Origin: Bacteroidota bacterium
Lineage (GTDB): Bacteria > Bacteroidota > Bacteroidia > Chitinophagales > Chitinophagaceae
Direction: 5' to 3'
Length of the DNA: 64,000 nucleotides
Assembly: GCA_028876495.1 (NCBI GenBank)
Contig: JAGWRO010000089.1
Location: forward strand, 124,001-188,000
Made by a program: the position numbers and the translations under genes. How positions within the stretch are numbered: the first letter of the stretch is position 1; the number at the start of each line of letters is the position of its first letter. Under the pieces are notes generated by a model. The model was not told the origin of the DNA. It made no database searches and worked only from the letters and a program-made list of their open reading frames with translations. This document shows, piece by piece, positions 9,538 to 45,370 of this stretch.

Positions 9538-9575
9538 CAGTAAATCCAATAAACAACGGGCTTTTTTATTTTGCT
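9538..9575 (+). repeat. CAGTAAAC element, copy A (convergent rmuC/metZ junction)
   Basis: CAGTAAAT, A-rich stretch, CGGGC core, then TTTTTTATTTTGCT. It lines up with seven other copies in the window at the same spacing (T run begins 24 nt after the C of CAG). It fills the gap between the converging rmuC and metZ stops. It may act as a two-way terminator. Confidence 0.6.
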
Positions 9576-9582
9576 TTCGGGA

Positions 9583-10752
9583 TCAACTTTTTTCCAGCGC
9601 CTGCAAAATATCTGCTTTTATGTCTTCGATATTTTCCAGGCCAACAGAAATCCTGATGAGCCCCGGCGTAATGCCAACTCCTGTTTTTTCTTCATCGGTT
9701 AATTTAGCATGAGTAGTTGAAGCAGGGTGAGAAGCAATACTGCGCGTATCTCCAAGATTGGAGGTAAGAGTAAGCATTTGCAACGCATTCAAAAACTTCT
9801 TTCCACTCTTTAATCCGCCTTTCAAATCAAAGGTAACCAACGCGCCACCCCGCTTCATTTGTTTTTTTGCTGTTTCATACATTGGGTGGGAGGGATGAAA
9901 AGGATATTTGATACTATTAAGTTTCGGATGGCCGTCCAGTGCTTTTACGAGTTCTTCAGCGTTGTCGCAATGCCTTTGTATCCTTACATCCAGCGTTTCC
10001 AAACTTTTACTGAGCAGCCACGCATTGAAAGGAGAAATCGAAGGCCCGGTATTTTTGCAGAAGGCGAACAGTTCGTCAATCAATTCTTTTTTTCCAACAA
10101 CCACACCTCCGAGCACGCGCCCTTGCCCATCGATCCATTTGGTGGCTGAATGTAAAATGAGATCAGCTCCATATGCTGCCGGTTTTTGTAAAATGGGAGT
10201 GGCAAAACAATTGTCGACCACTAAAATTACTTTATATTTCTTAGCCAATTTGCCCAGCCATTCCAGATCGATTATATCCAACCCCGGATTGGTAGGTGTT
10301 TCTATAAAGATCATTTTGGTGTTGGGCTTTATTAATGATTCCCATGAATCCGTATCATCAAGGTCTGCATAGGAATAGTCAATATTCCACCTGTGAAAAT
10401 ATTTGGTAATGATGGTATGTGTGGAACCAAAAACGGAACGGCAACTTAATAAATGATCACCTGCACTTAAAAATGTCATGAAGCAACCAAAGATGGCACT
10501 CATGCCGGAGGCAGTTGCAAAGCCGGCTTCGGTACCTTCCAACGCGCACATTTTATCAATAAATTCCTGCACATTCGGATTCTCAAACCGCGTATAAATA
10601 TTATTATCCAACTCACCTGCAAAGGTCGCTGCCATTTCTTCAGCACTATCGAACTGAAAACTTGAAGTAAGAAATAAAGGGGTGCTGTGTTCCTTTTCAC
10701 TTGTTCTCGGTGTCTGAATACGCACAGCCTGCGTATTGGGATGCTTCTTCAT
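9583..10752 (-). CDS. metZ: O-succinylhomoserine sulfhydrylase-like Cys/Met metabolism PLP enzyme
   Basis: PLP-dependent trans-sulfuration family enzyme of 389 residues, most like MetZ, which makes homocysteine from an O-acylhomoserine and sulfide. Visible landmarks are YTRFENPN near residues 53-60, ASGMSAIF (cofactor phosphate region), VVDNCFATP with the pyridine-binding Asp180, and SATKWIDGQG with PLP Lys205. C-terminal SVGLENIEDIKADI is typical of the family. Cystathionine gamma-synthase or a gamma-lyase cannot be fully excluded, but the KWIDGQGRVLGG signature favours MetZ. It is monocistronic, and its upstream spacer is full of repeats. Confidence 0.85.
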   Translation of the reverse strand: MKKHPNTQAVRIQTPRTSEKEHSTPLFLTSSFQFDSAEEMAATFAGELDNNIYTRFENPNVQEFIDKMCALEGTEAGFATASGMSAIFGCFMTFLSAGDHLLSCRSVFGSTHTIITKYFHRWNIDYSYADLDDTDSWESLIKPNTKMIFIETPTNPGLDIIDLEWLGKLAKKYKVILVVDNCFATPILQKPAAYGADLILHSATKWIDGQGRVLGGVVVGKKELIDELFAFCKNTGPSISPFNAWLLSKSLETLDVRIQRHCDNAEELVKALDGHPKLNSIKYPFHPSHPMYETAKKQMKRGGALVTFDLKGGLKSGKKFLNALQMLTLTSNLGDTRSIASHPASTTHAKLTDEEKTGVGITPGLIRISVGLENIEDIKADILQALEKS

Positions 10753-10840
10753 TTTGTAAAATTTGTATTGTCTTTACTTGTGTCTTTCTTTTTTTAAGAA
10801 AGGACTGCGAAGATATGAAGCAATGAATTTTATGAGGCGG

Positions 10841-10860
10841 ATAAATTTTATAGCGTTTGT
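10841..10860. repeat. 20-bp direct repeat, left copy
   Basis: ATAAATTTTATAGCGTTTGT, identical over 20 bp to 11170-11189. The two copies bracket 309 bp holding a GC-rich repeat and three palindromes. Confidence 0.85.
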
Positions 10861-10877
10861 TAATTCTAAATTTTGTG

Positions 10878-10934
10878 GGCGGTCGACACCGGCCACGGCG
10901 GGCTGCCTCGGTTGGGGGCCTTCAACCGGCGACA
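10878..10934 (-). repeat. GC-rich structured repeat, copy 1
   Basis: On the minus strand it reads GTCGCCGGTTG ... CAACCGAGGCAG ... GGCCGGTGTCGACCGCCC. It is clearly related to the element at 23427-23496 (shared GTCGCCGGTTG, AACCGxGGCAG and GGTGTC blocks). It is far more GC-rich than its surroundings and has internal stems such as CGGTTG/CAACCG. Confidence 0.7.
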
Positions 10935-10989
10935 ATTTGGAATGCTCATTTTTAGGTTAGATAGAATAGGAGTAAAACTTTTATAGAAC

Positions 10990-11130
10990 CATACCTGATC
11001 AATTGCAACTTGCTTTAGCAAGTGGTTACTATAGGATTGAGAGGCTTTAGCCAAAATTCTTTACAAATCACTTTAGGCTAAAGCCGGATAATAATCCTTC
11101 TATACACAGGGTTAAAACCCTGTGCAATTA
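10990..11130. repeat. Cluster of REP-like palindromes
   Basis: Three short perfect inverted repeats in a row: ACTTGCT-TT-AGCAAGT near 11010-11026; GGCTTTAGCC near 11042 with its reverse complement GGCTAAAGCC near 11075 (each is also self-complementary around two bases); and CACAGGGTT-AA-AACCCTGTG near 11105-11125. This layout is typical of REP-type intergenic repeats known in Bacteroidota. No coding potential was seen; the whole spacer 10753-11264 is non-coding. Confidence 0.65.
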
Positions 11131-11169
11131 AATTAGAAAGTATGATTGTGACTATTCTACCTAATTCTT

Positions 11170-11189
11170 ATAAATTTTATAGCGTTTGT
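11170..11189. repeat. 20-bp direct repeat, right copy
   Basis: Exact match to 10841-10860. Together they bracket the GC-rich element and the palindrome cluster, as expected for an inserted or duplicated cassette. Confidence 0.85.
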
Positions 11190-11205
11190 ATAATTATTCG
11201 AAAAC

Positions 11206-11238
11206 AAAAAGGAATTGCCTTTTAAAACAATTCCCTTT
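11206..11238 (-). terminator. Intrinsic terminator of the head-GIN gene
   Basis: On the minus strand AAAGGGAATTG pairs with CAATTCCTTTTT around a roughly 10-nt loop and ends in a T run. It sits 27 nt past the stop of the gene at 11265-11987. Confidence 0.75.
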
Positions 11239-11264
11239 AATATAATGAGGTGCTATTTTCTGAA

Positions 11265-11987
11265 TTATATTTTTATGGCTTTCCCGCTGCCGGCCACTTT
11301 TGTTGAAATGTTGGTGGCGTTTCCTTTGTAAAACACATTTCCGCTGCCACTGATATTTGCAGTAAGGCTTTTATTGGCATGTACTCTTGCGTTGCCGCTA
11401 CCACTTATTTTTACCTCTACATCATTCGCAGCAACATCGCTGCAATCAACATTTCCGCTTCCACTGACCGCTACCGAAACTGTATTTGCCGGGCCACCTT
11501 TTGCCACAATATTCCCACTTCCCGAAATGGCGAAATGAAGGTCTTTGAAAGAGTCTGAATTCAAATGAATATTACCTGATCCTGAAAGCATAATTTCAGT
11601 TTTGTCATCAGTGGTAAATGAGCCATTCCCATCAATATTGCCGCTGCCACTAAGTTGCAGCATATTTATTTTTGTCATTGAAACATACACTACCATTTTT
11701 GACCGTGATCTTAAATTCATATTCTTTTTCGGCTGAATGATGAGTTTGCCGTTTTCAACGTTTGTTTCTATATAAGGAAGCAGGTTTTCATCAGCTTCTA
11801 CCTGGATATTGTTTGAATTGCCATACACTATCTTTACATCCATCGGGCCACGGGAAGATAAAGAAGTGAAATCAGCAACGGTGCGTGTTTCTTTTTTTAC
11901 ATTTCCATCACCTTTAATCGTTTTCCATGGCTGCGCAAATAACTGTGTACTTGCAAGCATTAAAATAAGAATGAGTAACTTTTTCAT
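11265..11987 (-). CDS. Head-GIN domain (DUF2807) secreted protein
   Basis: Exported 240-residue protein. Signal peptide over about residues 1-18 (MKKLLILILMLASTQLFA). The remainder is a regular beta-helix-like repeat with recurring LSGSGNI/ISGSGNV motifs about every 20 residues, the hallmark of the head-GIN/DUF2807 family. These are presumed periplasmic or surface adhesin-like domains with no known enzymatic activity. It is monocistronic, divergent from the DinB gene and closed by its own terminator. Confidence 0.9.
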   Translation of the reverse strand: MKKLLILILMLASTQLFAQPWKTIKGDGNVKKETRTVADFTSLSSRGPMDVKIVYGNSNNIQVEADENLLPYIETNVENGKLIIQPKKNMNLRSRSKMVVYVSMTKINMLQLSGSGNIDGNGSFTTDDKTEIMLSGSGNIHLNSDSFKDLHFAISGSGNIVAKGGPANTVSVAVSGSGNVDCSDVAANDVEVKISGSGNARVHANKSLTANISGSGNVFYKGNATNISTKVAGSGKAIKI

Positions 11988-12090
11988 GATTTTTGTTTTA
12001 ATTTTTTTGGAAGGATAGTTGTGTAACGAATAGGATTGGTAAAAGTTACAAGAGTGAAAAAAAAATTTAAACGAAATAAATAATAAAATA

Positions 12091-12579
12091 ATGCAACCCG
12101 AAAAATCAGAAAATGCTGCGCTGGTTAATCACCTGACCGATCTTTTAAATAAGGGGAATGCGCATGTGACTTTAGATGAATCTGTAAATAATATCCCTTT
12201 CGAAATTGTGGATAAAAAGCCTCATAATCTCCCTTACAATTTGTGGCAAATAGTTGAGCATATCCGAATTGCACAATGGGATATTTTGGAATTTTCAAAA
12301 GACGCCAACCATAAATCTCCTAAATGGCCTGACGGATATTGGCCTGAGAATACAAAACCTTCCAAAGAAGAATGGGGAAAATGTATTCAACAGATCAAAA
12401 AAGACCGACAGGCATTTATCAGTTTGTTAAAAGAATCTTCTGAAAGTTTATTTACACCTTTTGATTACGGAAACGGGCAGACTTTGTTGCGCGAAGCTCT
12501 GGTATTGGCAGACCATAATAGTTACCACACAGGAGAAATTATCCTTTTGAGGAGGCTTTTGAATAATTGGAAAAAATAA
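12091..12579 (+). CDS. DinB family protein
   Basis: Four-helix-bundle DinB/YfiT-like protein of 162 residues, a superfamily of metal-dependent hydrolases or thiol transferases. Metal-ligand histidines are visible in the usual order: VEHIRIAQWD (about residue 56), then ADHNSYHTGEIILLRRLL near the C terminus. Substrate unknown; members include damage-inducible and bacillithiol-type proteins. Its stop codon overlaps the reverse-oriented CAGTAAAC element. Confidence 0.85.
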   Translation: MQPEKSENAALVNHLTDLLNKGNAHVTLDESVNNIPFEIVDKKPHNLPYNLWQIVEHIRIAQWDILEFSKDANHKSPKWPDGYWPENTKPSKEEWGKCIQQIKKDRQAFISLLKESSESLFTPFDYGNGQTLLREALVLADHNSYHTGEIILLRRLLNNWKK

Positions 12580-12606
12580 AAATCAGCAGTATTTATTTGT
12601 TTACTG
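12571..12606 (-). repeat. CAGTAAAC element, copy F (convergent DinB/lipoprotein junction)
   Basis: Minus strand: CAGTAAACAAATAAATACTG, then CTGATTTTTATTTTTT. The T run starts 24 nt after the first C, as in the other copies. It overlaps the end of the DinB gene and lies just past the stop of the small lipoprotein gene on the minus strand. Confidence 0.6.
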
Positions 12607-12627
12607 CCAGAGATTTTTCGGAATTTT

Positions 12628-12744
12628 TTAATGGTAGCCTACCATTTTAGAAGTAGCAAAGCAGCCTTGCTTTGAAGTGGTGCAGGAGGTTAAAGTTGCA
12701 CCCATCAAAAATACCAGCAGCAATACAATCAAAATCTTTCTCAT
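12628..12744 (-). CDS. Small lipoprotein, 38 residues
   Basis: Short ORF: ATG at 12744 to TAA at 12628. Reads MRKILIVLLLVFLMGATL followed by TSC, then TTSKQGCFAT and SKMVGYH. Basic start, hydrophobic core and lipobox Cys at residue 21 give a clear lipoprotein signal. The short mature part with a GC pair and a terminal GYH resembles tiny lipoproteins common in Bacteroidota (my recollection, not checked). Function unknown. It faces the DinB gene. Confidence 0.6.
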   Translation of the reverse strand: MRKILIVLLLVFLMGATLTSCTTSKQGCFATSKMVGYH

Positions 12745-13149
12745 GATTATAAGATTTAAAAAAAATACTTTTAGCAAACTGCAGGTACGAAAGTTTATTT
12801 TTCAATAAGATTGGAGGAAAAAGAAAACAAATTAACAAAAAATATTCCGGAAATACAAGTACGGAAATGCTCAACCAAAAACATAGTTTTTTGAGCACTG
12901 GAAAAGAAACAGGATTTAAAATGGAGATTTTAGAAAAAGCGATTCTCCAAAAATATTGAAAGGTGTATTTATTTTTCTATATTATATTTTTCTCTTCTGG
13001 ATTGAATAAATAGAATGACATGGATAGCTATAAGCATTTCACAGACAATTTCTTTTACGATCATAGGTTGCGAATTTGAATAATGTTAAACAATGTGTAT
13101 AGAAAATCAAAACGCTTCTTTGCTAATTTTATTATATAGGGCAAATTAA
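12745..13149. other. Non-coding spacer
   Basis: No convincing ORF on either strand. It holds one hairpin, TGCTCAA ... TTGAGCA at 12868-12897 with A-rich and T-rich inner arms, of unknown role. Confidence 0.5.
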
Positions 13150-13178
13150 AAGCCAGAAAAAATTACTTTTTCCGGCTT
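13150..13178 (-). terminator. Intrinsic terminator of the DUF4136/beta-barrel pair
   Basis: Minus strand AAGCCGGAAAAA pairs with TTTTTTCTGGCTT around a short loop, followed by T-rich sequence. It lies about 60 nt past the stop at 13237. Confidence 0.65.
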
Positions 13179-13236
13179 AATTAAATTAAAAGGTTAATAT
13201 TTGAAAAGGAATTCAGTTTTTTGAATTGAATCTTTT

Positions 13237-13869
13237 TTATCTTAATTGAATTTCAACTCCTGCCTGCACGTTTATTGAATTGAGATCTTTAAAATTATTT
13301 TTATGATAAGGTGCATAATCATAAGTAGCGCCTATGTTTAACCCGGATGTGCCTGTTTTTTTAAAAGGAATTACCACTCCAAGTCCCCCTTCTGCCCGAA
13401 ATCCAAAATTGGATTGACTGATGTTGCCAAATTCACCATAGTATTGTTTGTAATCAATAATATTAGCACCTGCAGCCACAGATACATATGGGTTTAAAAA
13501 CGAGGTAGTGCCCGGGAAATATTTTGCTTTTATTAAAATGGGCGTGGTTTGAACTGAGTTACTTAAAACAGCAGATATACTTTGGGTATTAGTCAAATGA
13601 TATAACGCCCGCGGATATTTTTGGTAATAGTCCTGGAAACCATAAGATAAGCCTGCAGACCATTTATCTGAAAAAGGATACATCAGGCTTCCCATAAAAC
13701 CCCGCGGAGAACCATTGCTTACCATATCTTTTTTAAAATTGCCTGTGGGAATGCTATAATTATAATTGAGCTCCAGTTTGAGTGGCTCTTTTTGGGCGGT
13801 TGCAGGCAAATAAAAGCAACTCAATAGGGAGACAGAGACGGCTGTCGCTATTATTTTTATTTTTTTCAT
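13237..13869 (-). CDS. Outer membrane beta-barrel protein
   Basis: 210 residues with a signal peptide ending near ATAQ (residue 26). The mature part shows alternating aromatic and polar strands (LELNYNYSIP, WSAGLSYGFQDYYQ, FGFRAEGGLGVVIPF, LNIGATYDYAPYH) ending in VQAGVEIQLR, which predicts a small 8-stranded barrel of the porin/OmpW-like type. No specific function can be given. It follows the DUF4136 lipoprotein gene by 10 nt, so they are co-transcribed. Confidence 0.75.
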   Translation of the reverse strand: MKKIKIIATAVSVSLLSCFYLPATAQKEPLKLELNYNYSIPTGNFKKDMVSNGSPRGFMGSLMYPFSDKWSAGLSYGFQDYYQKYPRALYHLTNTQSISAVLSNSVQTTPILIKAKYFPGTTSFLNPYVSVAAGANIIDYKQYYGEFGNISQSNFGFRAEGGLGVVIPFKKTGTSGLNIGATYDYAPYHKNNFKDLNSINVQAGVEIQLR

Positions 13870-13879
13870 TTCAGTAATT

Positions 13880-14512
13880 TTAATGTTTTAAATAAGGAGA
13901 CTGATCGAATAAAGCTTTCACCTGGCTATCAGCTACTGATGAATTTAAAATTCCTGATCCTCGGATCAATCCTGTCCAGATGACATTGATATTATTATTA
14001 TTGGTAGTAGCATTTTTTAAATTGAGTATATCAATAGATAGTGCTCCTTCTTTAACCTGGTAAATGCTATAGGCATAAGGAATATAATATCCATAATCGG
14101 GATAACCCCAGTAATACGGATCCCAATATCCACTGTAGTTGTACCAATAATCGCCATAGCTTATTACACCTGTTGAAGTGTTGATAATATGGTTTACATC
14201 AACGCCTAAGTCAGGATTTTCTTTTTTGGATACCAAAGTATATCCTGCCTGGCCCATGTATTTTTTTACCGCATCAATATAAGCCTGGTCAACTGCATTT
14301 AATTCACGCGTGGAGCTGCCATTTTCAATTACTGCTACAGAATCTGAAATACTGTAAGTGTTATAATTGGAAAAATTTACTGTAGAATCATGATCAGTAA
14401 TGTAAATCCTGGATTCTTCATTGCTTAAATTGGTTACCGGGTCTTTGGTGCAACTTGTATACAAAATAGTGGCCGCCAAAAAACCGATTAGTATCAATAA
14501 TCTTGTTTTCAT
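13880..14512 (-). CDS. DUF4136 family lipoprotein
   Basis: Envelope lipoprotein of 210 residues. I chose ATG 14512 because it places a clean lipoprotein signal at the N terminus (MKTRLLILIGFL ... YTSC, Cys21); the longer in-frame start at 14566 would add a non-signal extension. The body has the DUF4136 pattern (STVNFSNYNTYSISD ... AVKKYMGQAGYTLVSKKENPDLGVDVNHI) and a Tyr/Trp/Gly-rich central loop. The family is found as periplasmic lipoproteins of unknown role. It lies upstream of, and is co-transcribed with, a beta-barrel gene. Confidence 0.82.
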   Translation of the reverse strand: MKTRLLILIGFLAATILYTSCTKDPVTNLSNEESRIYITDHDSTVNFSNYNTYSISDSVAVIENGSSTRELNAVDQAYIDAVKKYMGQAGYTLVSKKENPDLGVDVNHIINTSTGVISYGDYWYNYSGYWDPYYWGYPDYGYYIPYAYSIYQVKEGALSIDILNLKNATTNNNNINVIWTGLIRGSGILNSSVADSQVKALFDQSPYLKH

Positions 14513-14661
14513 AGTGTACGTTTTTAGATATTTTTCCACAAAGCGTATACCTAAAAGGAGTTCCAAATTCTAATGAAATCATAAGATCACTAATAAAACT
14601 GAGGGTCATTAAAATTGGGAATTAGAAATTGGTAATATTTGTTTGTTTTCTGTAAAATCAT

Positions 14662-14695
14662 AAAAAAAACCTGCAGGCTTTTTTAACCTGCAGGT
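14662..14695 (-). terminator. Intrinsic terminator of the efflux operon
   Basis: Minus strand ACCTGCAGG-N9-CCTGCAGGT followed by a run of seven or more T. It lies 27 nt past the acrB-like stop at 14722. Confidence 0.9.
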
Positions 14696-14721
14696 GTATT
14701 ATTATCAACTAAAACCAAACA

Positions 14722-18294: not shown

Positions 18295-18332
18295 ACTTAT
18301 TTAATTGTGCTTTTTATCAAAAGCAGTTTATT

Positions 18333-18352
18333 GCATATTTGTTTATTTACTG
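18333..18352 (-). repeat. Partial CAGTAAAC element, copy G
   Basis: Minus strand CAGTAAATAAACAAATATGC; the TAA is the stop codon of the adaptor gene. It has the 5' half of the element but lacks the T-rich half, so it may be chance or a decayed copy. Confidence 0.35.
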
Positions 18353-23288: not shown

Positions 23289-23354
23289 GAATAGTGAATA
23301 GTGAATGCTGAATAGTAAACAAACAAAAAATCGCGATTTCTATTTTTTTTATTT
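23289..23354 (+). repeat. GAATAGT tandem units and CAGTAAAC element copy I
   Basis: Just after the nuclease-like stop come several GAATAGT/GAATGCT units (23289-23315), followed by TAGTAAACAAACAAA...CGCGATTTCTATTTTTTTT (23314-23354). The T-rich part begins 24 nt in, as in other copies. Confidence 0.5.
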
Positions 23355-23356: not shown

Positions 23357-23400
23357 AATTTGCATTCTGTTTTAAAAAAGATCATCTATTTATAGTAAAC
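23357..23400 (+). repeat. Direct repeat flanking the GC-rich element, left copy
   Basis: Starts AATTTGCATTCTGTTTT and ends ATAGTAAAC. It resembles 23498-23550 (AATTTGCAATCTGTTTT ... AAAGTAAAC). The pair brackets the GC-rich hairpin element. Confidence 0.6.
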
Positions 23401-23426
23401 AAAAAAATAAAGCAAAAATAATTTTT

Positions 23427-23497: not shown

Positions 23498-23550
23498 AAT
23501 TTGCAATCTGTTTTTTTTTAAAAGATCTTTTACAAAATTTTAAAGTAAAC
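23498..23550 (+). repeat. Direct repeat flanking the GC-rich element, right copy
   Basis: Partner of 23357-23400; ends in AGTAAACC just upstream of serC. Confidence 0.6.
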
Positions 23551-23587
23551 CAACAAATAAACCATAAAACAATTTTAACCCAAATTC

Positions 23588-24652
23588 ATGATTCACAATT
23601 TCAATGCTGGCCCTTCTATACTTCCGAAAAGTGTATTACAACAAGCTTCTGAAGCGATAATTAATTTTAATAACAGCGGCCTGTCGATTTTGGAAATAGG
23701 TCATCGTACCCCGCTTTTTGAATCGGTAATGGATGAAGCCATTTCACTGGTGAAGGAATTAATGCAACTGGATGATGACCATGAAGTTTTGTTTTTGCAT
23801 GGAGGCGCCACGGTTCAGTTTATGCAGGTGCCGATGAATCTTTTGGATCAAAATGAAACCGCATCTTATGCAGATACAGGTGTGTGGAGCAGCAAAGCTA
23901 TTAAAGAAGCCAAACTATTCGGAAAAGTTGAAGTAGTATGTAGTTCCAAAGAAAGTAATTTCAATTTTATTCCAAAAGATTTTGCCGTTCCCAACCAATC
24001 TGCCTATTTTCATATTACTACCAACAATACCATTTTTGGTACGCAATGGCAACAAATACCAAGCGTTAGTATGCCGTTGATTGCCGATATGTCAAGCGAT
24101 ATTCTAAGCAGGAAACTCGACTTCAATTCATTTGACCTGATATTTGCCGGTGCTCAAAAAAACATGGGCGCTGCAGGCGCAACGCTCGTTGTAGTAAACA
24201 AACAAATATTAGGAAAAATAAAACGCGCCATTCCTGCTATTATGGATTACAGGAATCATATCCAGTCAAAAAGTATGTTGAATACACCGCCGGTTTTTGC
24301 TGTATATGTTTCAATGCTTACACTTCGCTGGCTTAAAGAAAATGGGGGAGTAGAGGCGATGGAACAATTAAATAATGAGAAAGCGTCTTTGCTGTATAAT
24401 GCGATTGACAACAGCAAAATTTTTAAAGGCACTGTGGTTAAAGAAGATCGTAGCAAGATGAATGTTTGCTTTGTGATGGATGATGCTGAGCAGGAGAAAA
24501 AATTTCTTGAATTTTCAAAACAAAATAATATTTATGGAATAAAAGGCCATCGCTCAGTGGGTGGTTTCAGGGCTTCCTTATACAATGCATTGCCTTTGAG
24601 CAGTGTAAAATACCTGGTTGAGAAAATGGAAGAATTTGAAAAAGGATTATAA
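23588..24652 (+). CDS. serC: Phosphoserine aminotransferase
   Basis: Converts 3-phosphohydroxypyruvate to phosphoserine in serine synthesis (also used in B6 synthesis). Starts MIHNFNAGPSILP, the class-V aminotransferase SerC signature. LFLHGGATVQFMQ binds cofactor phosphate, FAGAQKNMGAAG holds PLP Lys191, and GIKGHRSVGGFRASLYNAL is the conserved C-terminal substrate-binding end. 354 residues, as usual. It is monocistronic behind a repeat-rich 300-bp spacer; a SerA-like dehydrogenase lies about 19 kb away rather than adjacent. Confidence 0.95.
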   Translation: MIHNFNAGPSILPKSVLQQASEAIINFNNSGLSILEIGHRTPLFESVMDEAISLVKELMQLDDDHEVLFLHGGATVQFMQVPMNLLDQNETASYADTGVWSSKAIKEAKLFGKVEVVCSSKESNFNFIPKDFAVPNQSAYFHITTNNTIFGTQWQQIPSVSMPLIADMSSDILSRKLDFNSFDLIFAGAQKNMGAAGATLVVVNKQILGKIKRAIPAIMDYRNHIQSKSMLNTPPVFAVYVSMLTLRWLKENGGVEAMEQLNNEKASLLYNAIDNSKIFKGTVVKEDRSKMNVCFVMDDAEQEKKFLEFSKQNNIYGIKGHRSVGGFRASLYNALPLSSVKYLVEKMEEFEKGL

Positions 24653-29002: not shown

Positions 29003-29038
29003 CAGTAAACAAACAAATACTCCGGTTTTTTATTTGCT
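29003..29038 (+). repeat. CAGTAAAC element, copy B (convergent junction)
   Basis: CAGTAAACAAACAAATA, then CTCCGG and TTTTTTATTTGCT, starting at the base after the ligase stop codon and filling the gap to the converging gene at 29048. It is nearly the same as copy C at 45335. Confidence 0.65.
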
Positions 29039-32417: not shown

Positions 32418-32436
32418 ATTTTATATTGAAAAGTTG

Positions 32437-32468
32437 AAAAAAAATCTACATAGTTTATTTGTTTACTG
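32437..32468 (-). repeat. CAGTAAAC element, copy H
   Basis: Minus strand CAGTAAACAAATAAAC, TATGTAGA, then eight T. The spacing is as in other copies, but it lies between two tandem plus-strand genes, so it is not restricted to convergent junctions. Confidence 0.55.
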
Positions 32469-32880: not shown

Positions 32881-32900
32881 CCTTTCCATGGATAAATAAA

Positions 32901-32937
32901 CAACAAAACCTTAATCTTTTGGATTGAGGTTTTGTTG
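32901..32937. terminator. Bidirectional terminator hairpin (CsbD / histidine kinase)
   Basis: 16-bp stem CAACAAAACCTTAATC / GATTGAGGTTTTGTTG (one G-U pair) with a 5-nt loop, in the gap between converging genes. T-rich sequence follows on the plus side; on the minus side TTGTTGTTTATTTATC follows. Confidence 0.8.
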
Positions 32938-32969
32938 TTATTAATTTTTTAAAATATTTTCGTTTAATC

Positions 32970-36108: not shown

Positions 36109-36215
36109 ATTTTCCTTGCTCCTTTTCCCATTTCTTAGGTAATTTAATTTCATTCAAAACTAACAGCGGATTTTATTACCTTTCTCTTTCAATACATAAC
36201 AGCAAACTCAATTCT

Positions 36216-37212
36216 GTGAAGAAAATATTTCTCGCATTCTCTCTTTGCATTTCATTCCAATATATTTTCTGTCAAAAAGTAAAAATTTGTTCCGATAGTA
36301 TTCAATCTTCTTTTCGTGGATTGAGTGTTGTAAATAATATGGTGCTATGGGTAAGCGGAAGTAATGGCACTGTTGGAAGAAGTGTTGATGGAGGAAAAAA
36401 AATGGAAATGGATGAAAATAAAAGACTTCGAAAAAACAGATTTCAGGGACATTGAAGCTTTTGATGAAAAAACGGCAGTTATCATGGGCGTAGACGAACC
36501 TGCTTATATTTTGAGAACCAGGGATGGAGGTGAAAACTGGAAAGTGGTTTATAAAAACAACATAAAAGGAATGTTTTTAGATGCGATGGAATTTTGGAAT
36601 AAGCAAAGTGGTATAGTGGTGGGCGATCCTATAAACGGTCAGTTTTTTATAGTAAGAACTTTTGATGGAGGAAAAAAATGGCAGAATATTCCTGAAAAGA
36701 ACAGGCTGGTAGCAGATAGTGGTGAAGCATGCTTTGCCGCAAGCGGAACCAATGTAAGGAAATTGAGTAAATCAGAAGCAGCGTTTGTTTCCGGAGGTTT
36801 ATCGTCGCACATTTTTATAAGAAATAAAAAGATACTGCTTCCTGTTTTACAGGGCAAAGAATCGACCGGTGCCAATTCAATTGCCGTAAAAAACAACAAG
36901 AGAATGATCGTTGTCGGTGGAGATTTTTTGCAAAAAGACAGTACAAAGGGAAATTGTACCATCTCAGAAGATGGTGGAAAAACATGGCGTCAACCGCAAA
37001 AACCACCTTCAGGTTATAGAAGTTGCGTTGAATATTTAACTAAAGACAAATGGATCACCTGCGGTTTGAACGGAGTTGATATTTCAAATGATAATGGCAT
37101 GAACTGGGAAAAAATAAGCGATCAAAGTTTCAACGTTTGCCGAAAAGCTAAAAATGGTAGTGCTGTATATTTTGCAGGAAACGGCGGAAGAGTGGGTAAA
37201 CTGCAACAGTAA
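36216..37212 (+). pseudogene. BNR/YCF48-like beta-propeller protein, frameshifted
   Basis: Two overlapping frames form one gene. Frame 1 starts with GTG 36216, a signal peptide (MKKIFLAFSLCISFQYIFC) and SVVNNMVLWVSGSNGTVGRSVDGGKK; it then breaks at an eight-A run (36395-36402). Frame 2 continues with WKWMKIKDFEKTDFRDIEAF through several DGG-x-x-W blades to the C terminus. With seven A the read-through would be DGGKKWKW, matching the intact DGGKKW repeat encoded with seven A at about 36663. The full protein would be about 331 residues, a secreted WD40/BNR-like propeller. Either a real frameshift, slippage or an assembly error. Confidence 0.8.
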
Positions 37213-37242
37213 ACCAATCATAAAGCAGGATTTTTATTTTGG
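37207..37242 (+). repeat. CAGTAAAC element, copy D (convergent junction)
   Basis: CAGTAAACCAATCATAAAG, CAGGA, then TTTTTATTTTGG. The TAA inside CAGTAA is the stop codon of the BNR gene. It lies before the converging FUSC gene end at 37258. Confidence 0.6.
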
Positions 37243-37257
37243 ATCCGCGGATTCTTT

Positions 37258-39378: not shown

Positions 39379-39480
39379 GTATTAGAATACAAAGAAAGAT
39401 AAAAATTGATTGGCTTTGTTTAAGGTTATCAAATTCAAATCAGAAGGGGCTGCGCCAGCCTTAAATAATTTTATTTTCGA

Positions 39481-39513
39481 AAACAAAAAATCTGCTTATT
39501 TGTTTGTTCACTT
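39481..39513 (-). repeat. CAGTAAAC element, copy E
   Basis: Minus strand AAGTGAACAAACAAATAAGC, AGA, then TTTTTTGTTT. It lies downstream of the CstB-like gene on its strand (stop at 39550). The rest of the gap 39379-39549 holds only a small GGCTG-CGC-CAGCC hairpin at 39447-39460. Confidence 0.5.
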
Positions 39514-39549
39514 TCAATACAGCGCGAAGAAATAATTTGTTGTGAAAAA

Positions 39550-40953
39550 TTAATTCAGCACGTTGGCTTCTTTTTCGGTTTCTATACTTTTTTGCTCTTT
39601 TATTTTATCCCAGCCGCCCAAAACATTTCGCAGGTTGTGGTATCCTTGTCTTTTTAAAAGTGAAGCTGCAATAACGCTCCTGTAACCGGCGCCGCATTGT
39701 ATATAGATATTCTGATCTTCTTCCAATTGAGCAATTTGGGCTACATCCGCCATTTCTGCCAAGGGTAAATTAACTGCACCCTTTACATGCCCATCGGCAA
39801 ATTCAGTGAACTTTCGTACATCCAACACGATTAAATGATCATCAAAAGGGATATCCATTGCCAATTCATCCGCTTCCACATTGATAATAAGATCAATTTT
39901 TTCTCCTGCTTTTTTCCATGTATCAAATCCGCCTTTTAAATATCCTTCAACGTTTTCAAAGCCAACCCGTGCAAGCCTGATTACAGTTTCTTCTTCTTTC
40001 CCTTTATCGCAGATAAGTAAAATTGGTTTGTCAAATGGCAATAAACTTCCCGCCCATTCCGCAAACCTTCCGTCAAGCCCTATAAAAACAGAGCCTGGAA
40101 TAAAGCCATTTGAAAAATCTTCAGGGTCTCTTGTATCAAGAATTACAGTATCGTTTACAAGTTGCTTTTTAAAATCTTTTAAGGAAAGAGCATGCAAGCC
40201 TTTTGATTTCACTTCGTTCAGATTAGAATATCCTTCCTTATTGATCTTTGCATTAATAGAAAAATAAGGCGGAGGATCTGTAAGATCTTTAGTTACTGCT
40301 TTTATAAATTCCTCTCTTGTTTGAGGAAGCATCGCGTAGTTTGATTGTTTTTCAGTTCCTATGGTGCTCTGTGTTTCAGGCCCAAGATTTTTTCCACAAC
40401 TGCTTCCCGGACCGTGTCCGGGATATACGATCAGGTCATCAGGCAGAGACATTAATTTATTCTGGATAGAATCATACATAATAGAAGCCAATTCTTCTTT
40501 AGAAAGATTGCCGCTGCTCAGGTCCGGCCTTCCCACGTCTCCTACAAACAAAGTGTCTCCTGTAAAAATAGCGTGTGGTTTTCCTGTTTCATCTTTTAAA
40601 AGATAGCAGGTAGATTCCAAAGTATGGCCGGGCGTATGAATCACCTGCAGCGTAAGATTGCCAATTTTAAACTCTTCCCCATCCTTTGCAAGATGAAATT
40701 TAAAGTTAGCTTTTGTTTCAGGCCCATAAACAATAGTGGCATCTGTTTGTTTGGACAGATCTAAATGCCCGCTTACAAAATCAGCATGAAAATGCGTTTC
40801 AAAAATATACTTAATTGAAGCATTGTGTTCTTTTGCTATTTGCAAATAAGAGTCGGTATCTCTTATCGGGTCAATTACTGCTGCTTCGCCATTGCTCTCA
40901 ATAAAATAAGACGCTTCACTTAAGCAGCCGGTATAAATTTGTTGTATGTTCAT
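39550..40953 (-). CDS. CstB-like persulfide dioxygenase-rhodanese fusion, first paralogue
   Basis: 467 residues. N-terminal ETHE1-type metallo-beta-lactamase domain (1-250) with ETHFHADFVSGHLDL, HTPGHTLESTCYLL and FTGDTLFVGDVGRPDL; these ligands fit a non-heme iron persulfide dioxygenase. Two rhodanese domains follow: the middle one (about 265-365) has a poor loop (CDKGKEEE, no CxxGxR arginine), while the last (about 370-455) has an intact CGAGYRS loop. This order matches S. aureus CstB, which oxidises persulfides to thiosulfate. An ArsR gene lies 105 nt upstream on the same strand. Confidence 0.88.
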   Translation of the reverse strand: MNIQQIYTGCLSEASYFIESNGEAAVIDPIRDTDSYLQIAKEHNASIKYIFETHFHADFVSGHLDLSKQTDATIVYGPETKANFKFHLAKDGEEFKIGNLTLQVIHTPGHTLESTCYLLKDETGKPHAIFTGDTLFVGDVGRPDLSSGNLSKEELASIMYDSIQNKLMSLPDDLIVYPGHGPGSSCGKNLGPETQSTIGTEKQSNYAMLPQTREEFIKAVTKDLTDPPPYFSINAKINKEGYSNLNEVKSKGLHALSLKDFKKQLVNDTVILDTRDPEDFSNGFIPGSVFIGLDGRFAEWAGSLLPFDKPILLICDKGKEEETVIRLARVGFENVEGYLKGGFDTWKKAGEKIDLIINVEADELAMDIPFDDHLIVLDVRKFTEFADGHVKGAVNLPLAEMADVAQIAQLEEDQNIYIQCGAGYRSVIAASLLKRQGYHNLRNVLGGWDKIKEQKSIETEKEANVLN

Positions 40954-40975
40954 AGATCACTTTTAAAAATAAAAT

Positions 40976-41008
40976 AGCCATATTTATTCAAAGGTCATAA
41001 ATATGGCT
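40976..41008 (-). promoter_or_regulatory. Perfect 12-bp inverted repeat between arsR and the CstB-like gene
   Basis: Arms AGCCATATTTAT (40976-40987) and ATAAATATGGCT (40997-41008) around 9 nt. On the minus strand the centre contains GACCTTTG, close to a -7 box, so this could be the ArsR-type operator of the CstB-like gene. Equally, the hairpin is followed on the minus strand by ATTTTATTTTT and could be the terminator of arsR. The sequence does not decide between them. Confidence 0.6.
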
Positions 41009-41058
41009 CAAAATTTTTATAAAAATCTCAATAGTATTACCAGGGAAATTATTGAAAA

Positions 41059-41412
41059 TTATCCAACAAGTTCTTTCACAAACTTATTGATATCTGCAAT
41101 ACGTTCTTCATTTATAGTATAAAAAATGAATTTTCCTTCGCGCACTGTTTTTACAATATCGGCTTTACGTAAAATAGCGAGATGTTGTGAAGCCACAGAT
41201 TGTTCGAGGCGTAACTTTACATAAAGTTCAGTAACAGTAATTCTTTTGTGTTCGTCAATTGTTTTAAGAATCAGTTGCCTAAGTTTATGATTAAGGGCTC
41301 TTAAAACAAGAGCAGCTTTTTTGATTTTCAGGTAATCCATGTTTTTAAGAGCATCACTTTCGTTAGTGTGCTCCAGCCGGTTTGTTTCGTGACTTTGTGC
41401 TGTGAGTGTCAT
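41059..41412 (-). CDS. ArsR family winged-helix regulator without cysteines
   Basis: 117 residues. Winged-helix core: LRALNHKLRQLILKTIDEHKRITVTELYVKLRLEQSVASQHLAILRKADIVKTVREGKFIFYTI, with recognition helix SVASQHLAILRKA. There is no cysteine at all, so dithiol persulfide sensing as in BigR/SqrR or thiolate metal sensing is not possible. The first 24 residues are poorly conserved in appearance; the Met at about 25 could be the start. A TACCTTTG -7-like box lies upstream (about 41472-41479). Probably controls the adjacent CstB-like gene. Confidence 0.85.
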   Translation of the reverse strand: MTLTAQSHETNRLEHTNESDALKNMDYLKIKKAALVLRALNHKLRQLILKTIDEHKRITVTELYVKLRLEQSVASQHLAILRKADIVKTVREGKFIFYTINEERIADINKFVKELVG

Positions 41413-41528
41413 TCTAATTAGATTTTAATTGATAATAAATGTTTTTCAGGAGAATTCAAATTTCTAAAGCAAAGGTACGTATTGTAAATAGATATAGTTT
41501 GTAACGAAATATTAAAATAATTATTCTT

Positions 41529-42218
41529 TTAGCCAATTTTTGCCGGTGTATAAAATTCTTTAACGTATAAAGGCTTAGCATTTATTACGTTTTCAAAATC
41601 CTTTTTTTGAAATTTGTTCCAGCCAAATTTTGCCAGTGAGGTAGAAGAAATATCGGATAAAATATATTTCAAATTTGGTGACTGGTTTTCTGCTAATTTC
41701 TTAAATTTTTCTGCCCCGCTGCCGAAGTAAAATAAAAGATGATTTTTTGCCAACTCTTCAAAGCTGGTTTCGTTTAAAACCATTGCTGATGGCGGGTTTA
41801 TTTCATTTAGCTGCCTGTTATAAACCGCGGTAAAAACTTCCATCCTTCGCGCATCGATCATTGGGCAAAAGAGCGTTTCTTTACTTAAATCAGGAAAATT
41901 TTCAATTGCAGAAAAAGCCATTAGCTCCAGGGAATTATACATCATCATAGGAATTTGTAAAGCAAAACATAATCCTTTTGCGGTAGCCAATCCTACTCTA
42001 ATGCCTGTGTAAGAGCCGGGCCCGGCGGTTACACCAATTGCTTTTAATGTACCGATTTTAATGTCATTATCCTGTAAAATTTTATTAATTGCTATATGTA
42101 AAAACGAAGCATGTTCTTTCGGTTCTGTATTGATTGAATTGCCTAAAACTTTGTTTTCGTTACAAATATTTACAATGGCTATTTCTGCTGTGGTATGAAT
42201 ATTTAAGATGTAATTCAT
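41529..42218 (-). CDS. tsaB: tRNA threonylcarbamoyladenosine biosynthesis protein TsaB
   Basis: 229 residues. Partner of TsaD and TsaE in making t6A37 in tRNA. ASKHA-fold N-terminal half with LNIHTTAEIAIVNI, the KAIGVTAGPGSYTGIRVGLATAKGLCFAL signature (about 59-86), and PMIDARRMEVFTAVY. It overlaps the upstream 3HCDH-like gene by 4 nt (ATGA), indicating translational coupling. Confidence 0.93.
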   Translation of the reverse strand: MNYILNIHTTAEIAIVNICNENKVLGNSINTEPKEHASFLHIAINKILQDNDIKIGTLKAIGVTAGPGSYTGIRVGLATAKGLCFALQIPMMMYNSLELMAFSAIENFPDLSKETLFCPMIDARRMEVFTAVYNRQLNEINPPSAMVLNETSFEELAKNHLLFYFGSGAEKFKKLAENQSPNLKYILSDISSTSLAKFGWNKFQKKDFENVINAKPLYVKEFYTPAKIG

Positions 42219-42853
42219 CGATCAACTTTTTCTGATAGGTCTGAATATAATTTTTTTAAAGCCGGAGCCGGCAAATAACGCTCTTCTTTTTCAGCTAATT
42301 TTTCCAAAAGACCATATATGTTTTCTACGCCTATCTTTTCTGCCCATTCAAATGGCCCGTCCGGATAATTGGTTCCCAGTTTCATGGCCTCGTCAATTTC
42401 TTCTATCGAGCTAATATTTTCTCCAAAAGCAAAAAAAGCTTCATTTACGATCATGCTGATCACTCTTGCTGATACCAAACCCGGCGTATCTTTCACAAAA
42501 ATTATTTTTCGGTTGATCGAGTTAAAAACCTCTTCATGACCTTCCGGCTGATTTGAAACTACTTCCCAGAGCTGCCTTTCCAAAAAGCCAGGCCATCCAT
42601 TTATTCTGCTTACGTTATCGGGCAAACGCAATTCGGCCAAGGTTTCAATTACCTGGTTCACATAGAGAGGCTTTTCTCCAAATCTTTCAAAATTGATATC
42701 CGTATGATCTGAAAGAACAAAGAATGCATCGTAATTTTCTAAATCATTCGTCCCGGCAATCTCTTTTGCAAAAGTTACAGAAGTTCGTTCTGCTGCAGGT
42801 ATTTTCAATATTTCTTTCTTCTGCTGTTCATCTGCAAGAATAAAAATATTCAT
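42215..42853 (-). CDS. 3-hydroxyacyl-CoA dehydrogenase C-terminal domain-like protein
   Basis: 212 residues. Residues of about 110-205 match the 3HCDH C-terminal helical domain (FVKDTPGLVSARVISMIVNEAFFAFGENISSIEEIDEAMKLGTNYPDGPFEWAEKIG). The N-terminal half is too short and lacks GxGxxG, so no NAD-binding Rossmann fold is evident. It may be a non-enzymatic relative. Coupled to tsaB by a 4-nt overlap, an arrangement I believe recurs in Bacteroidota. Confidence 0.75.
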   Translation of the reverse strand: MNIFILADEQQKKEILKIPAAERTSVTFAKEIAGTNDLENYDAFFVLSDHTDINFERFGEKPLYVNQVIETLAELRLPDNVSRINGWPGFLERQLWEVVSNQPEGHEEVFNSINRKIIFVKDTPGLVSARVISMIVNEAFFAFGENISSIEEIDEAMKLGTNYPDGPFEWAEKIGVENIYGLLEKLAEKEERYLPAPALKKLYSDLSEKVDR

Positions 42854-42931
42854 ACTCTATTTTTTGCAAAAATAGGTTTGTTAGTTGAAGGAAAGTTTTG
42901 CAACTTTAAACTCTTTTCAAAAAAATAAAAC

Positions 42932-43318
42932 ATGAGCAAAAAGATCGTTACAACGACAAAAGCACCAGAGCCGATTGGTCCCTACAGCCAGGCAGTAAAA
43001 GCAGGAGGGTTTTTATTTTTATCCGGCCAGGTGGCTTTGATACCGGGTACTTCCCAATTAAACACCGCAACTATTACTGATGAAACCAGGCAGGTGATGG
43101 AGAATTTAAAAGCCGTGCTGGCAGAAGCCGGACTTAATTTTAGCCACGTGATAAAGACAACCATTTTTTTAAAAGAAATGAGTTCTTTTGGGGAAGTGAA
43201 TACAGAATATGGTAAATATTTTGATAAAGATTTTCCGGCAAGGGAAACAGTTGCGGTAAAAACTTTACCTAAAGATGTAAATGTGGAAATTAGCATGATT
43301 GCCATTGCAACCGAATAG
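42932..43318 (+). CDS. ridA: RidA family reactive-intermediate deaminase
   Basis: 128 residues. Hydrolyses reactive enamine/imine intermediates from PLP enzymes. Motifs: PEPIGPYSQAVKAGGFLFLSGQVALIP, AGLNFSHVIKTTIFLKEM, and the active-site Arg in PARETVAVKTLPKDVNVEISMIA, with the C-terminal Glu/Ile pattern intact. Usual length. It is divergent from the tsaB pair. Confidence 0.93.
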   Translation: MSKKIVTTTKAPEPIGPYSQAVKAGGFLFLSGQVALIPGTSQLNTATITDETRQVMENLKAVLAEAGLNFSHVIKTTIFLKEMSSFGEVNTEYGKYFDKDFPARETVAVKTLPKDVNVEISMIAIATE

Positions 43319-43416
43319 TAAACCAACAAATTTTTAATAAAGTGATTCTATGGACGTGAGGAGGAGGCAGAATTATAAAAGATAAAAATTTAAAAGGAAC
43401 ATTAAAACTATAAAAT

Positions 43417-44346
43417 TTGAACAGGCAGGTAATTATAACTTCAAAGGCGCATAAATTTTTAACAGAAACACTTCAGAAAAAGGGTTATTCAGTTCTTATT
43501 GCTGAAAAAATAACCTATGAAGAGTTGGGTTCAATCATCAGCCAGGCAGAAGGGCTGGTTGTTACTACGCGAATGCCGATTGATAAGCCTTTGCTGGACA
43601 AAGCAGGCCGTTTGAAGTGGATCGGAAGGTTAGGAAGCGGCATGGAATTGATAGACGTGGAATATGCAGAATCGAAAGGGATTAAATGTGTTAGCAGCCC
43701 GGAAGGCAATCGCAATGCAGTAGCAGAACATTCACTCGGGTTATTATTGAATCTTACCAATAAGATCAGTTCGAGCTTTGAGGAAATCAAAGACAGGAAA
43801 TGGATCAGGGATGCCAACCGTGGTACAGAACTGGAAGGCAAAACGATCGGGATTATCGGCTATGGCAATACAGGATCTGCATTTGCAAAGGTGTTGGGTT
43901 GCTTTGATGTAACGGTTCTTGCTTATGATAAATTCAAGTTTGGATTCAGTAAAGACCATGTAAAAGAAGCCAATTTAGAGCAGGTGTGTCGTTATGCAGA
44001 TGTGCTAAGTATGCATGTGCCACTTACAGCAGAAACGCAGCATATGGCTAATGAAAAGTTTTTTAATTCGCTTGAAAGGTCTCCGTTTTTTATTTCAACC
44101 TGTCGTGGAAAAGTTACTGATACTTCGGCTTTGATCAATGCTTTAAAAAATAAAAAAATTGCCGGAGCAGGCCTCGATGTAATGGAAAATGAAAAATTTG
44201 ATACGTATTCAAAAGAAGAAAATCAAAGCCTTAATTGGTTATTAGCGCAGCCTAATGTAATTTTAACGCCACATATAGCCGGATATTCGCATGAAGCATT
44301 TTATAAAATGGCAAAAGTGCTCCTGGAAAAATTAGGCTTGAAATAA
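43417..44346 (+). CDS. D-2-hydroxyacid dehydrogenase, SerA-like
   Basis: 309 residues, TTG start. NAD-binding Rossmann motif [21 protein letters not shown] (about 142-162), catalytic Arg in STCRGKVTD, and the catalytic His in [12 protein letters not shown]. It has no ACT domain, so it resembles short phosphoglycerate dehydrogenases and related D-2-hydroxyacid dehydrogenases. A serine-pathway role is possible given serC in the same window, but it is not shown by adjacency. A greA promoter overlaps its last codons. Confidence 0.88.
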
Positions 44347-44368
44347 AATTTAATCTTTCTTATATTTG
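44338..44368 (+). promoter_or_regulatory. Promoter upstream of greA
   Basis: TTG (44338-44340), 20 nt, then TATATTTG (44361-44368): a close match to the Bacteroidota housekeeping promoter. The -33 box lies inside the end of the dehydrogenase gene. Confidence 0.65.
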
Positions 44369-44373
44369 TATTC

Positions 44374-44414
44374 ATACAACGTCTTAGTAAATACTGGGAC
44401 GTTGTATTTTTTTT
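44374..44414 (+). terminator. Terminator/attenuator hairpin in the greA leader
   Basis: Stem ATACAACGTC (44374-44383) / GACGTTGTAT (44398-44407), 10 bp, with an inner AGTA/TACT pair in the loop, followed by an eight-T tract ending at 44414. It lies just downstream of the greA promoter and 39 nt before the greA ATG. It could terminate the dehydrogenase transcript, attenuate greA, or both. Confidence 0.85.
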
Positions 44415-44452
44415 CAACATTACATAAAGTTTTGACAATTAAATCAGATGTT

Positions 44453-44926
44453 ATGAGCCAGGTTAATTATGTAACTAAGGACACTTTTGAGCAAATGCAG
44501 GCAGAACTGCAGCACATGAAAGGAGTAGAAAGACCCGCTGCTTCAAAGGCAATAGGCGAAGCCCGTGAAAAAGGGGACCTTAAAGAAAATGCGGAATATG
44601 ATGCTGCCAAAGAAGCGCAGGGATTACTGGAAGCCAGAATAAAGCAACTGGAAACCATTATTGCAACTGCAAGAATTGTAGATGAAAGCACAATTGACAC
44701 CAGTAAAGTTTCAGTTCTTACTAAAGTTACACTCACTAATATTGCTACAAAAAAGCAGGTAACTTACAAGATTGTTTCTGAAAAAGAAGCAAACCTTAAG
44801 GAACAAAAAATATCTGCCAATTCGCCGATAGGAAACGGCTTGCTCGGAAAAGCAGTGGGCGATGTAGCTGAAATAAAAGTTCCTGCGGGAATTATAAAAT
44901 TCAGGATTGATAAAATAACCGCTTAG
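44453..44926 (+). CDS. greA: Transcription elongation factor GreA
   Basis: 157 residues from ATG 44453; longer in-frame starts upstream run through the hairpin leader and are rejected. Stimulates transcript cleavage by backtracked RNA polymerase. N-terminal coiled coil with tip acidic residues (GEAREKGDLKENAEYDAAKEAQGLLEARIKQLE), C-terminal FKBP-like domain with ISANSPIGNGLLGKAVGDVAEIKVPAG. Usual length. The HIT gene follows after 9 nt. Confidence 0.95.
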   Translation: MSQVNYVTKDTFEQMQAELQHMKGVERPAASKAIGEAREKGDLKENAEYDAAKEAQGLLEARIKQLETIIATARIVDESTIDTSKVSVLTKVTLTNIATKKQVTYKIVSEKEANLKEQKISANSPIGNGLLGKAVGDVAEIKVPAGIIKFRIDKITA

Positions 44927-44935
44927 CCGTTACCG

Positions 44936-45328
44936 ATGACCCTATTCAGTAAAATAATCAAAGGCGAAATTCCTTCTTATAAAATTGCCGAAAACGAAAA
45001 GTTTTTTGCTTTCCTGGATATAAATCCATTAGTGGAAGGCCACACGTTGGTGGTTCCCAAAGTAGAAGTAGATAAATTCCTGGAGATGCCCGATGATTAT
45101 CTTTCAGAGATATTACTATTTGCAAAACCCATTGCAGCCGCTATAGAAAAAGCAATTCCATGTAAGCGCTGTGGACTAAGTGTGATTGGGCTTGAAGTTC
45201 CTCATGCACACTTACATCTCATTCCATTGAACCATATGGATGATATTAATTTCACGCGGAAAAAGCTTTCTCCAACAAAAGAAGAATTGATGAATGCGCA
45301 GGAGAAAATTTTGAGTGAGTTGAAATAA
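44936..45328 (+). CDS. HIT family nucleotide hydrolase
   Basis: 130 residues. Histidine-triad protein with HAHLHLIPLN (HxHxHxx) near residue 90 and FLDINPLVEGHTLVVPKVEVD near the N terminus. Likely an AMP-lysine or dinucleoside-polyphosphate hydrolase; the exact substrate cannot be read. Co-transcribed with greA (9 nt gap), a common Bacteroidota pairing. Confidence 0.92.
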   Translation: MTLFSKIIKGEIPSYKIAENEKFFAFLDINPLVEGHTLVVPKVEVDKFLEMPDDYLSEILLFAKPIAAAIEKAIPCKRCGLSVIGLEVPHAHLHLIPLNHMDDINFTRKKLSPTKEELMNAQEKILSELK

Positions 45329-45334
45329 AAATTC

Positions 45335-45370
45335 CAGTAAACAAATAAATAAACCGGATTTTTATTTGCT
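45335..45370 (+). repeat. CAGTAAAC element, copy C (convergent HIT/ruvC junction)
   Basis: CAGTAAACAAATAAATAAAC, CGGA, then TTTTTATTTGCT. The last bases overlap the ruvC stop codon on the other strand. It forms the stem CAAATAAA/TTTATTTG. It is the best match to copy B. Confidence 0.65.

Follow-up and report, generated by a model that had tools for sequence, protein, structure and literature searches.

The 64-kb window analysed here (64,000 nucleotides of a Chitinophagaceae genome, contig JAGWRO010000089.1, positions 124,001 to 188,000) encodes, among others, RmuC, MetZ, a DinB-like protein, an AMP-binding enzyme, a BNR protein, a FUSC-like protein, a HIT protein and RuvC, and a bipartite element of 33-34 bp recurs between and within its genes. 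Nineteen copies of at least 16 bits were found in the window (Table 1), eleven beyond those given coordinates earlier, with four of these eleven in genes. The original prediction, made from the sequence letters, had listed eight full copies: their places (to within a few bases) and their anatomy were confirmed, and seven are members of the family with 27-40 bits, while the one at 9538 (plus strand) scores 6.9 bits and does not belong to it. A copy near 18333 that had been described as partial is a real member (18320-18352, minus strand, 23.1 bits). Five of seven convergent junctions had been said to carry the element; eight such junctions were called in the window, of which four hold a strong copy, and the rmuC/metZ junction retains a weak copy only.

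Table 1 Copies of the element in the 64-kb window, and integron-like loci carrying attC-like sites in the own genome and in relatives
Feature	Position	Strand	Bits	Found by	Context
Copy	6586-6618	+	28.3	matrix scan	within gene 4850-8098 (+)
Copy	12574-12606	-	38.0		convergent junction; overlaps last bases of DinB-like gene 12091-12579 (+); earlier given as 12571
Copy	14620-14652	-	29.8	matrix scan	flanked by two minus-strand genes
Copy	18320-18352	-	23.1	matrix scan	flanked by two minus-strand genes; earlier partial copy G
Copy	23313-23345	+	36.1	matrix scan	follows gene ending 23287 (+)
Weak copy	23393-23425	+	18.0	matrix scan	gap after gene ending 23287 (+)
Copy	23543-23575	+	23.3	matrix scan	gap between gene ending 23287 and gene starting 23588 (+)
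Copy	24192-24224	+	19.6	matrix scan	within gene 23588-24652 (+)
Copy	29003-29035	+	39.8		convergent junction; abuts AMP-binding enzyme gene end 29002; G161 ortholog is a site, 3-column gap
Copy	32436-32468	-	27.4		intergenic; G161 ortholog is a site, 2-column gap
Copy	37207-37239	+	32.7		over BNR gene stop codon, convergent with FUSC-like gene; G161 site identity 97%, flank 81%
Copy	39481-39513	-	29.9		flanked by two minus-strand genes; G161 site identity 85% versus flank 49%
Copy	43316-43348	+	21.9		gene end; retained in G161
Copy	45335-45367	+	39.9		HIT/ruvC convergent junction
Copy	48017-48049	-	22.1		within gene 48013-48855 (-); G161 weak, 13.8 bits
Copy	49219-49251	-	28.6	matrix scan	within gene 48912-50255 (-)
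Copy	50346-50378	-	29.1	matrix scan	flanked by two minus-strand genes
Copy	55691-55723	-	26.4	matrix scan	flanked by two plus-strand genes
Copy	56507-56539	-	25.1	matrix scan	flanked by two minus-strand genes
Tyrosine recombinase, L250 (own contig C73, 1-10632)	2834-4069				one open reading frame ahead of first attC-like site
attC-like matches, L250	4938-5128, 6831-6968 (two fragments), 7708-7894, 9488-9673, 10265-10407
Relatives' integron-like loci	L107-L112, L114-L116, L257

The weight matrix derived from genome sites gives the consensus YAGTAAACVAACAAATA-N5-RATTTTTATTT. In 824 kb of the own genome 233 sites reach at least 16 bits, corresponding to about 283 per Mb and, by extrapolation to the whole 4.70-Mb genome, to about 1,330 copies. 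The 4.70-Mb genome contains 103 exact matches to the pattern CAGTAAACN{10,16}TTTTTATTT and 0 to the reversed pattern, and among the matches listed for it the distance between the halves is 16 bp in 98, and 14 and 15 bp in two others. The matrix was seeded by whole-genome exact matches, with its final columns taken solely from the first 464 kb and none from a held-out set of 360 kb. In the held-out set 102 sites reach 18 bits, against means of 0 and 1 in order-3 and order-5 Markov sequences (two sequences of each order), and 108 reach 16 bits, where 20 matrices with permuted columns find 0-2. The element was also the top motif (score 198, null 23) of a de novo anchored 7-mer search in the own genome. 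The repeat is real, and much more abundant than the original prediction had seen. As to the spacing between the halves, a search pattern one base too long reduces the own-genome matches from 391 to 6, and with the matrix spacing shifted by three bases 5-12 sites are found in the held-out set. A shift of one base leaves 69 and 72 sites instead of 102, a tolerance that arises because A/T runs are present in both halves.

Information is confined to positions 0-34 of the alignment, and the 49-50 bases on each side are near background. A non-palindromic core, YAGTAAACVAAC, is followed by an A/T tract at positions 13-17 and a second one at positions 24-33, the two being centred at about 15 and 26.5, about 12 positions or one helical turn apart, and positions 18-22 between them are nearly unconstrained. 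Positions 13-15 read AAA in 164 of 222 sites (124 expected under independence) and TTT in 24 (0.8 expected), with positions 25-29 T-rich in both classes (82% and 77%, respectively). This coupling of AAA and TTT points to a requirement for rigid tracts on duplex DNA rather than for a hairpin. Weak pairing of the A-rich and T-rich halves, as suggested originally, found no counterpart in the alignment: 18 registers were tried, and in none do the halves covary like the arms of a stem (z from -2.0 to 1.2). Seventeen candidate hairpins followed by a T run were detected between 28000 and 47000 of the window, a number not above the shuffle expectation (15.4 +/- 4.3), and none of them overlaps an element. 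The longest of these hairpins, with a 19-bp stem (32899-32939), lies between convergent genes, in the one such junction called from 28 to 47 kb that has no element.

Placement was assessed with genes called by a home-made hexamer scorer (87% coding). Per kb, convergent gaps hold 3.81 copies of the element, tandem gaps 1.69, divergent gaps 1.03 and genes 0.065. A site is present in 42 of the 72 convergent gaps of at least 40 bp in the 824 kb, in 104 of the 365 tandem ones and in 26 of the 98 divergent ones, and the convergent excess over divergent junctions, a comparison likewise proposed with the original prediction, is significant (p = 4e-5; for all gap sizes, 45/95 versus 26/101, p = 0.002). 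Forty-seven of the 233 copies lie inside called genes, 26 in sense and 21 in antisense orientation, and 35 of these 47 are more than 60 bp away from the stop of a well-scored gene. Between tandem genes the orientation is random with respect to transcription (61 same, 49 opposite; p = 0.29). The copies are also more evenly spaced than expected, with a coefficient of variation of 0.81 compared to 1.14 +/- 0.07 for random placement in the same location classes, and with 5 neighbours closer than 150 bp compared to 33 +/- 4.7 in simulations; 0 of 1000 simulations were as low. All five close pairs share orientation, and close inverted pairs are absent from the 824 kb.

In the sister genome G161, 16 copies of the own genome could be aligned, of which 12 are still sites and nine of these align gaplessly, seven of the nine scoring above the own genome and two slightly below. 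The remaining four comprise two gapless sequences that fall below threshold and two in poorly aligned gaps, with no clean insertion visible. Most alignable copies differ from G161 by point substitutions in place, which points to conservation in place and not to transposition. Originally described as short, dispersed and like no named family, the element is indeed a dispersed signature, though it does not appear to be mobile.

The element is narrowly distributed. A strict-form scan of a collection of 84,980 species genomes identified 35 matching stretches in five genomes (the own genome being possibly excluded), namely three Chitinophagaceae, 'bacterium isolate clean1869' and one Bacteroidetes bacterium. 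With one mismatch allowed, 59 of 394 family genomes had any match, the own genome having 391 and no other more than 9, in scans that did not draw the genus members G155, G156, G160 and G161. Across 20 genomes of the genus the strict pattern was counted 91 times in the own genome, 70 in G161, 48 in G156, 7 in G160, 6 in G155 and 0-1 times in the others. Sampled densities at 18 bits were 389 per Mb in G156, 326 in G160, 240 in G155 and 50 in G163, the first three values resting on 25-69 kb with some contigs chosen for strict matches; the density for G161 (241 per Mb at 14 bits) is biased upward because its contigs were picked among those listed with a strict match. No sites of at least 18 bits were present in 20 kb each of G045 and G162. 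The de novo 7-mer search was unclear in G150 (160 kb; 30 versus a null of 25) and G157 (120 kb; 20 versus 21), which seem to lack a comparable motif in the sampled part.

Identity of RuvC to that of the own genome decreases from 94% in G161 to 86% in G160, 83% in G155 and G156, 81% in G163, 77% in G045 and 73% in G159. At the 3' end of ruvC, where the own genome has an element, diverged copies were found in G161 and G156, and no copy of at least 12 bits in the 16 other genus genomes examined. In a combined RuvC and ComEC tree the five element-rich genomes require two changes and G156 branches first, although this tree is rough (quick method, no bootstrap, G155 represented by 21% of columns and a G161 ComEC that looks replaced). 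Such a topology would fit a single gain early on, followed by decay in the G163, G045 and G159 lineage. Copies of the element are limited to a single small clade, most likely belonging to the Chitinophagaceae.

A possible instance of transfer of element-bearing DNA was observed in G351, an element-poor genome of another genus, where two near-consensus elements 1.08 kb apart flank a cupin gene (L106, 5353-5385 and 6433-6465). The cupin protein is 80-81% identical to those in G155 (L271) and G150 (L272), which are also accompanied by an upstream element. A dispersed hairpin with a perfect stem, of the GACCTATAAGGTTTT type, occurs at L106:5309-5342 and 6388-6422 in G351 and at L271:347-380 in G155. 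It ends about 11 bp ahead of both G351 elements, which suggests that the terminator-like hairpin and the element are distinct features.

Strong matches in element-poor genomes sit in imperfect inverted repeats of about 190 bp, which separate small unrelated genes and have the AAC...GTT ends of attC-like sites. Besides the own genome, at least eight others of the family (G294, G150, G157, G349, G198, G159, G130 and G218) have integron-like cassette arrays of this kind. A profile of the attC-like sites gave 29 distinct matches in the DNA analysed, 14 containing an element of 25-37 bits in one orientation, three further ones (two on own contig C73, one in G130) with a 17-25 bit copy at a different place and in the opposite orientation, and 12, some of them fragments, without the element; these shares are biased upward because most loci were retrieved by matching the element. 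When one attC-like site was folded as single-stranded DNA, its stability did not exceed that of shuffled versions (z -1.08; 30 of 200 equally good), although its 19-bp outer stem appears in the fold. The cassettes may have captured the element, which would be consistent with an uptake role, but attC sites share descent, and independent captures would number perhaps two.

The own genome encodes ComEC and DprA (profile matches of 6.5e-56 and 6.6e-75), and among the 20 genus genomes, the own included, ComEC exceeded the cut-off in 18 and DprA in 19. Between the own genome (L249:8037-10133) and G161 (L251) the identity of ComEC is only 57%, against 89-98% for its neighbours UvrD, YitT, PurH and two others. 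The uptake channel thus seems to have been replaced or to have diversified strongly.

As the best explanation we propose that the element, a signature on double-stranded DNA, could be a DNA-uptake sequence, a mark for self-recognition that works without type IV pili and is read by an envelope receptor; we judge the chances for and against this proposal to be equal. In this model a DNA receptor in the envelope would recognise the core, with the two rigid A/T tracts, spaced by one helical turn, serving to bend or hold the duplex. DNA from the same clade, marked by the element, would enter through ComEC in preference to other DNA, and DprA and RecA would assist its recombination. This recombination could maintain and spread the element by point mutation where harm is small, chiefly at gene ends, occasionally in genes and in either orientation. 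The abundance and architecture of the element, its regular spacing, random orientation, evolution in place and restriction to one clade, and the occurrence of ComEC and DprA, are documented above; competence of these bacteria, the receptor and the uptake preference are the parts that we infer here, and the step from a genome signature to uptake may turn out right or wrong with similar probability. The proposal can be widened to a pilus-independent self-DNA recognition in Bacteroidota, with an anatomy convergent with the Haemophilus uptake signal sequence (USS); integron cassettes of the family would have captured the sequence in their attC sites, and competent relatives would favour free cassettes in uptake. 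In this form it is tentative, and we lean towards doubting it.

Several observations weigh against an uptake role. The core alone is modestly enriched (CAGTAAAC 55 times versus 24 expected and AGTAAACAAA 31 versus 4.7, in 464 kb), and the commonest 8-mer is described as 26-63-fold over-represented in five genomes of the Hin type (PMC1626085). Copies in genes are weaker, with 40 of the 47 reaching 18 bits and 16 reaching 26 bits, and their 20% share is below the shares quoted for uptake sequences in H. influenzae (65%) and N. gonorrhoeae (35%) (PMC1939737). The bias to gene ends would also fit a transcription-linked role; uptake sequences of Pasteurellaceae are reported to be likewise biased to gene termini (PMC2346458). 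The even spacing could equally indicate a chromosome protein, since evenness is disputed for uptake sequences, the same discussion that argues that they are not strictly even giving both sides (PMC1939737). ComEC and DprA are also found in element-poor relatives, the machinery therefore does not discriminate element-rich from element-poor genomes, and competence genes were discarded as a discriminator. A PilB/PilT-type ATPase (PF00437) was over the cut-off in 13 of 14 control genomes but in none of the 20 genus genomes, 18 of which gave short sub-cut-off matches. Receptors known for uptake sequences are part of type IV pili; ComP, for one, is a pilin.

The strongest rival, which we nevertheless regard as unlikely, holds that the element is bound inside the cell by a clade-specific protein with a role in organising, segregating or replicating the chromosome. 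This protein would bend DNA at some 1,300 non-palindromic sites, evenly spaced and largely outside coding DNA and promoters. Copy number, even spacing, A-tract coupling, clade restriction and conservation in place would all suit such a protein. The presence of the element in attC-like sites within the cassettes of other genera would be unexpected, however, and the sampled contigs show no skew between strands (107 plus, 126 minus, counted by contig strand and not by direction of replication).

A terminator at gene ends, bidirectional or factor-dependent and without a GC-rich hairpin, appears improbable. It is favoured by the density peak in convergent gaps and by tandem gaps of at least 120 bp, in which 63 of 79 copies are closer to the upstream stop than to the downstream start, but it does not account for a fifth of the copies lying in genes on both strands, for the random orientation in tandem gaps or for the anti-clustering of the copies, and no copy is present in 30 of the 72 convergent gaps that measure at least 40 bp. 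The bidirectional AT-rich terminator of the original prediction is therefore not upheld as the main role, and a terminator was rejected as the main function by covariation, the hairpin scan, the in-gene share and orientation. Copies inside open reading frames, lack of orientation and even spacing have been used to argue against a terminator role for uptake sequences as well (PMC1939737).

A short repeat that is or once was mobile, and that was copied into gene ends, would explain many near-identical, dispersed and clade-limited cores, yet it is very improbable given the unconserved sequence outside positions 0-34, the nearly free positions 18-22 and the synteny with G161, where nine of the 12 retained copies align without gaps. 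Least credible is a regulon operator or promoter element, since the anatomy resembles a protein site but some 1,300 copies, a fifth of them in genes, have no orientation and show their lowest intergenic density at divergent gaps.

Among known systems, the candidate uptake sequence most resembles the USS of Pasteurellaceae, described as a core with two 3' AT-rich segments, in the Hin type with 12 positions between their centres, at spacings of roughly single helical turns (PMC1626085), with tracts predicted to be rigid and slightly bent (PMC7811141). Both have a core followed by two A/T tracts about 12 bp apart (PMC1626085), copy numbers from hundreds to thousands, within as well as between genes and with a bias to gene termini (PMC1626085, PMC2346458), and both arise by mutation rather than copying, as a clade-specific type (PMC1626085, PMC7811141, PMC2346458). 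The core YAGTAAACVAAC is nevertheless unrelated to the USS cores AAGTGCGGT or ACAAGCGGT, and the element has a density of about 283 per Mb, whereas H. influenzae has about 800 per Mb of its 9-bp core (1471 copies in 1.8 Mb; PMC1626085). The element also differs in belonging to Bacteroidota, in being more degenerate, in lacking close inverted pairs and in that no type IV pilus ATPase exceeds the cut-off. With intrinsic (Rho-independent) terminators it shares the location at gene ends and the T run, but it has no covarying hairpin or orientation and has copies in genes.

The DNA uptake sequence (DUS) of Neisseriaceae is, like the element, a genome-wide self-signature in and between genes, but consists of GCCGTCTGAA and is described without flanking A/T motifs (PMC1626085); its receptor is ComP (PMC3868556). 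Both Pasteurellaceae and Neisseriaceae are stated to import DNA by type IV pili (PMC7965970), and uptake sequences were stated in 2006 to be known only in these two families (PMC1626085). Among the papers ranked highest in searches of the open-access literature, none defined an uptake sequence for Bacteroidota. Within this phylum, competence in Riemerella is described as involving ComEC, DprA, ComF and RecA, with pilus homologues not detected and an unknown outer-membrane DNA route proposed, and R. columbina as favouring its own DNA, with no sequence defined for this preference (PMC8459023, PMC7965970). Frequent k-mers, A-rich in part, are tabulated as putative Riemerella uptake sequences with their function left open (PMC7965970), and no bipartite motif stands among the k-mers considered. 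If the uptake reading is true, the element would offer a handle on the Bacteroidota receptor and make the own-DNA preference of Riemerella testable, and its attC-like copies would link natural transformation and integrons as routes of gene transfer. It would then be a third, unrelated uptake-type signature beside USS and DUS, with a convergent DNA anatomy in a phylum that imports DNA without such pili.

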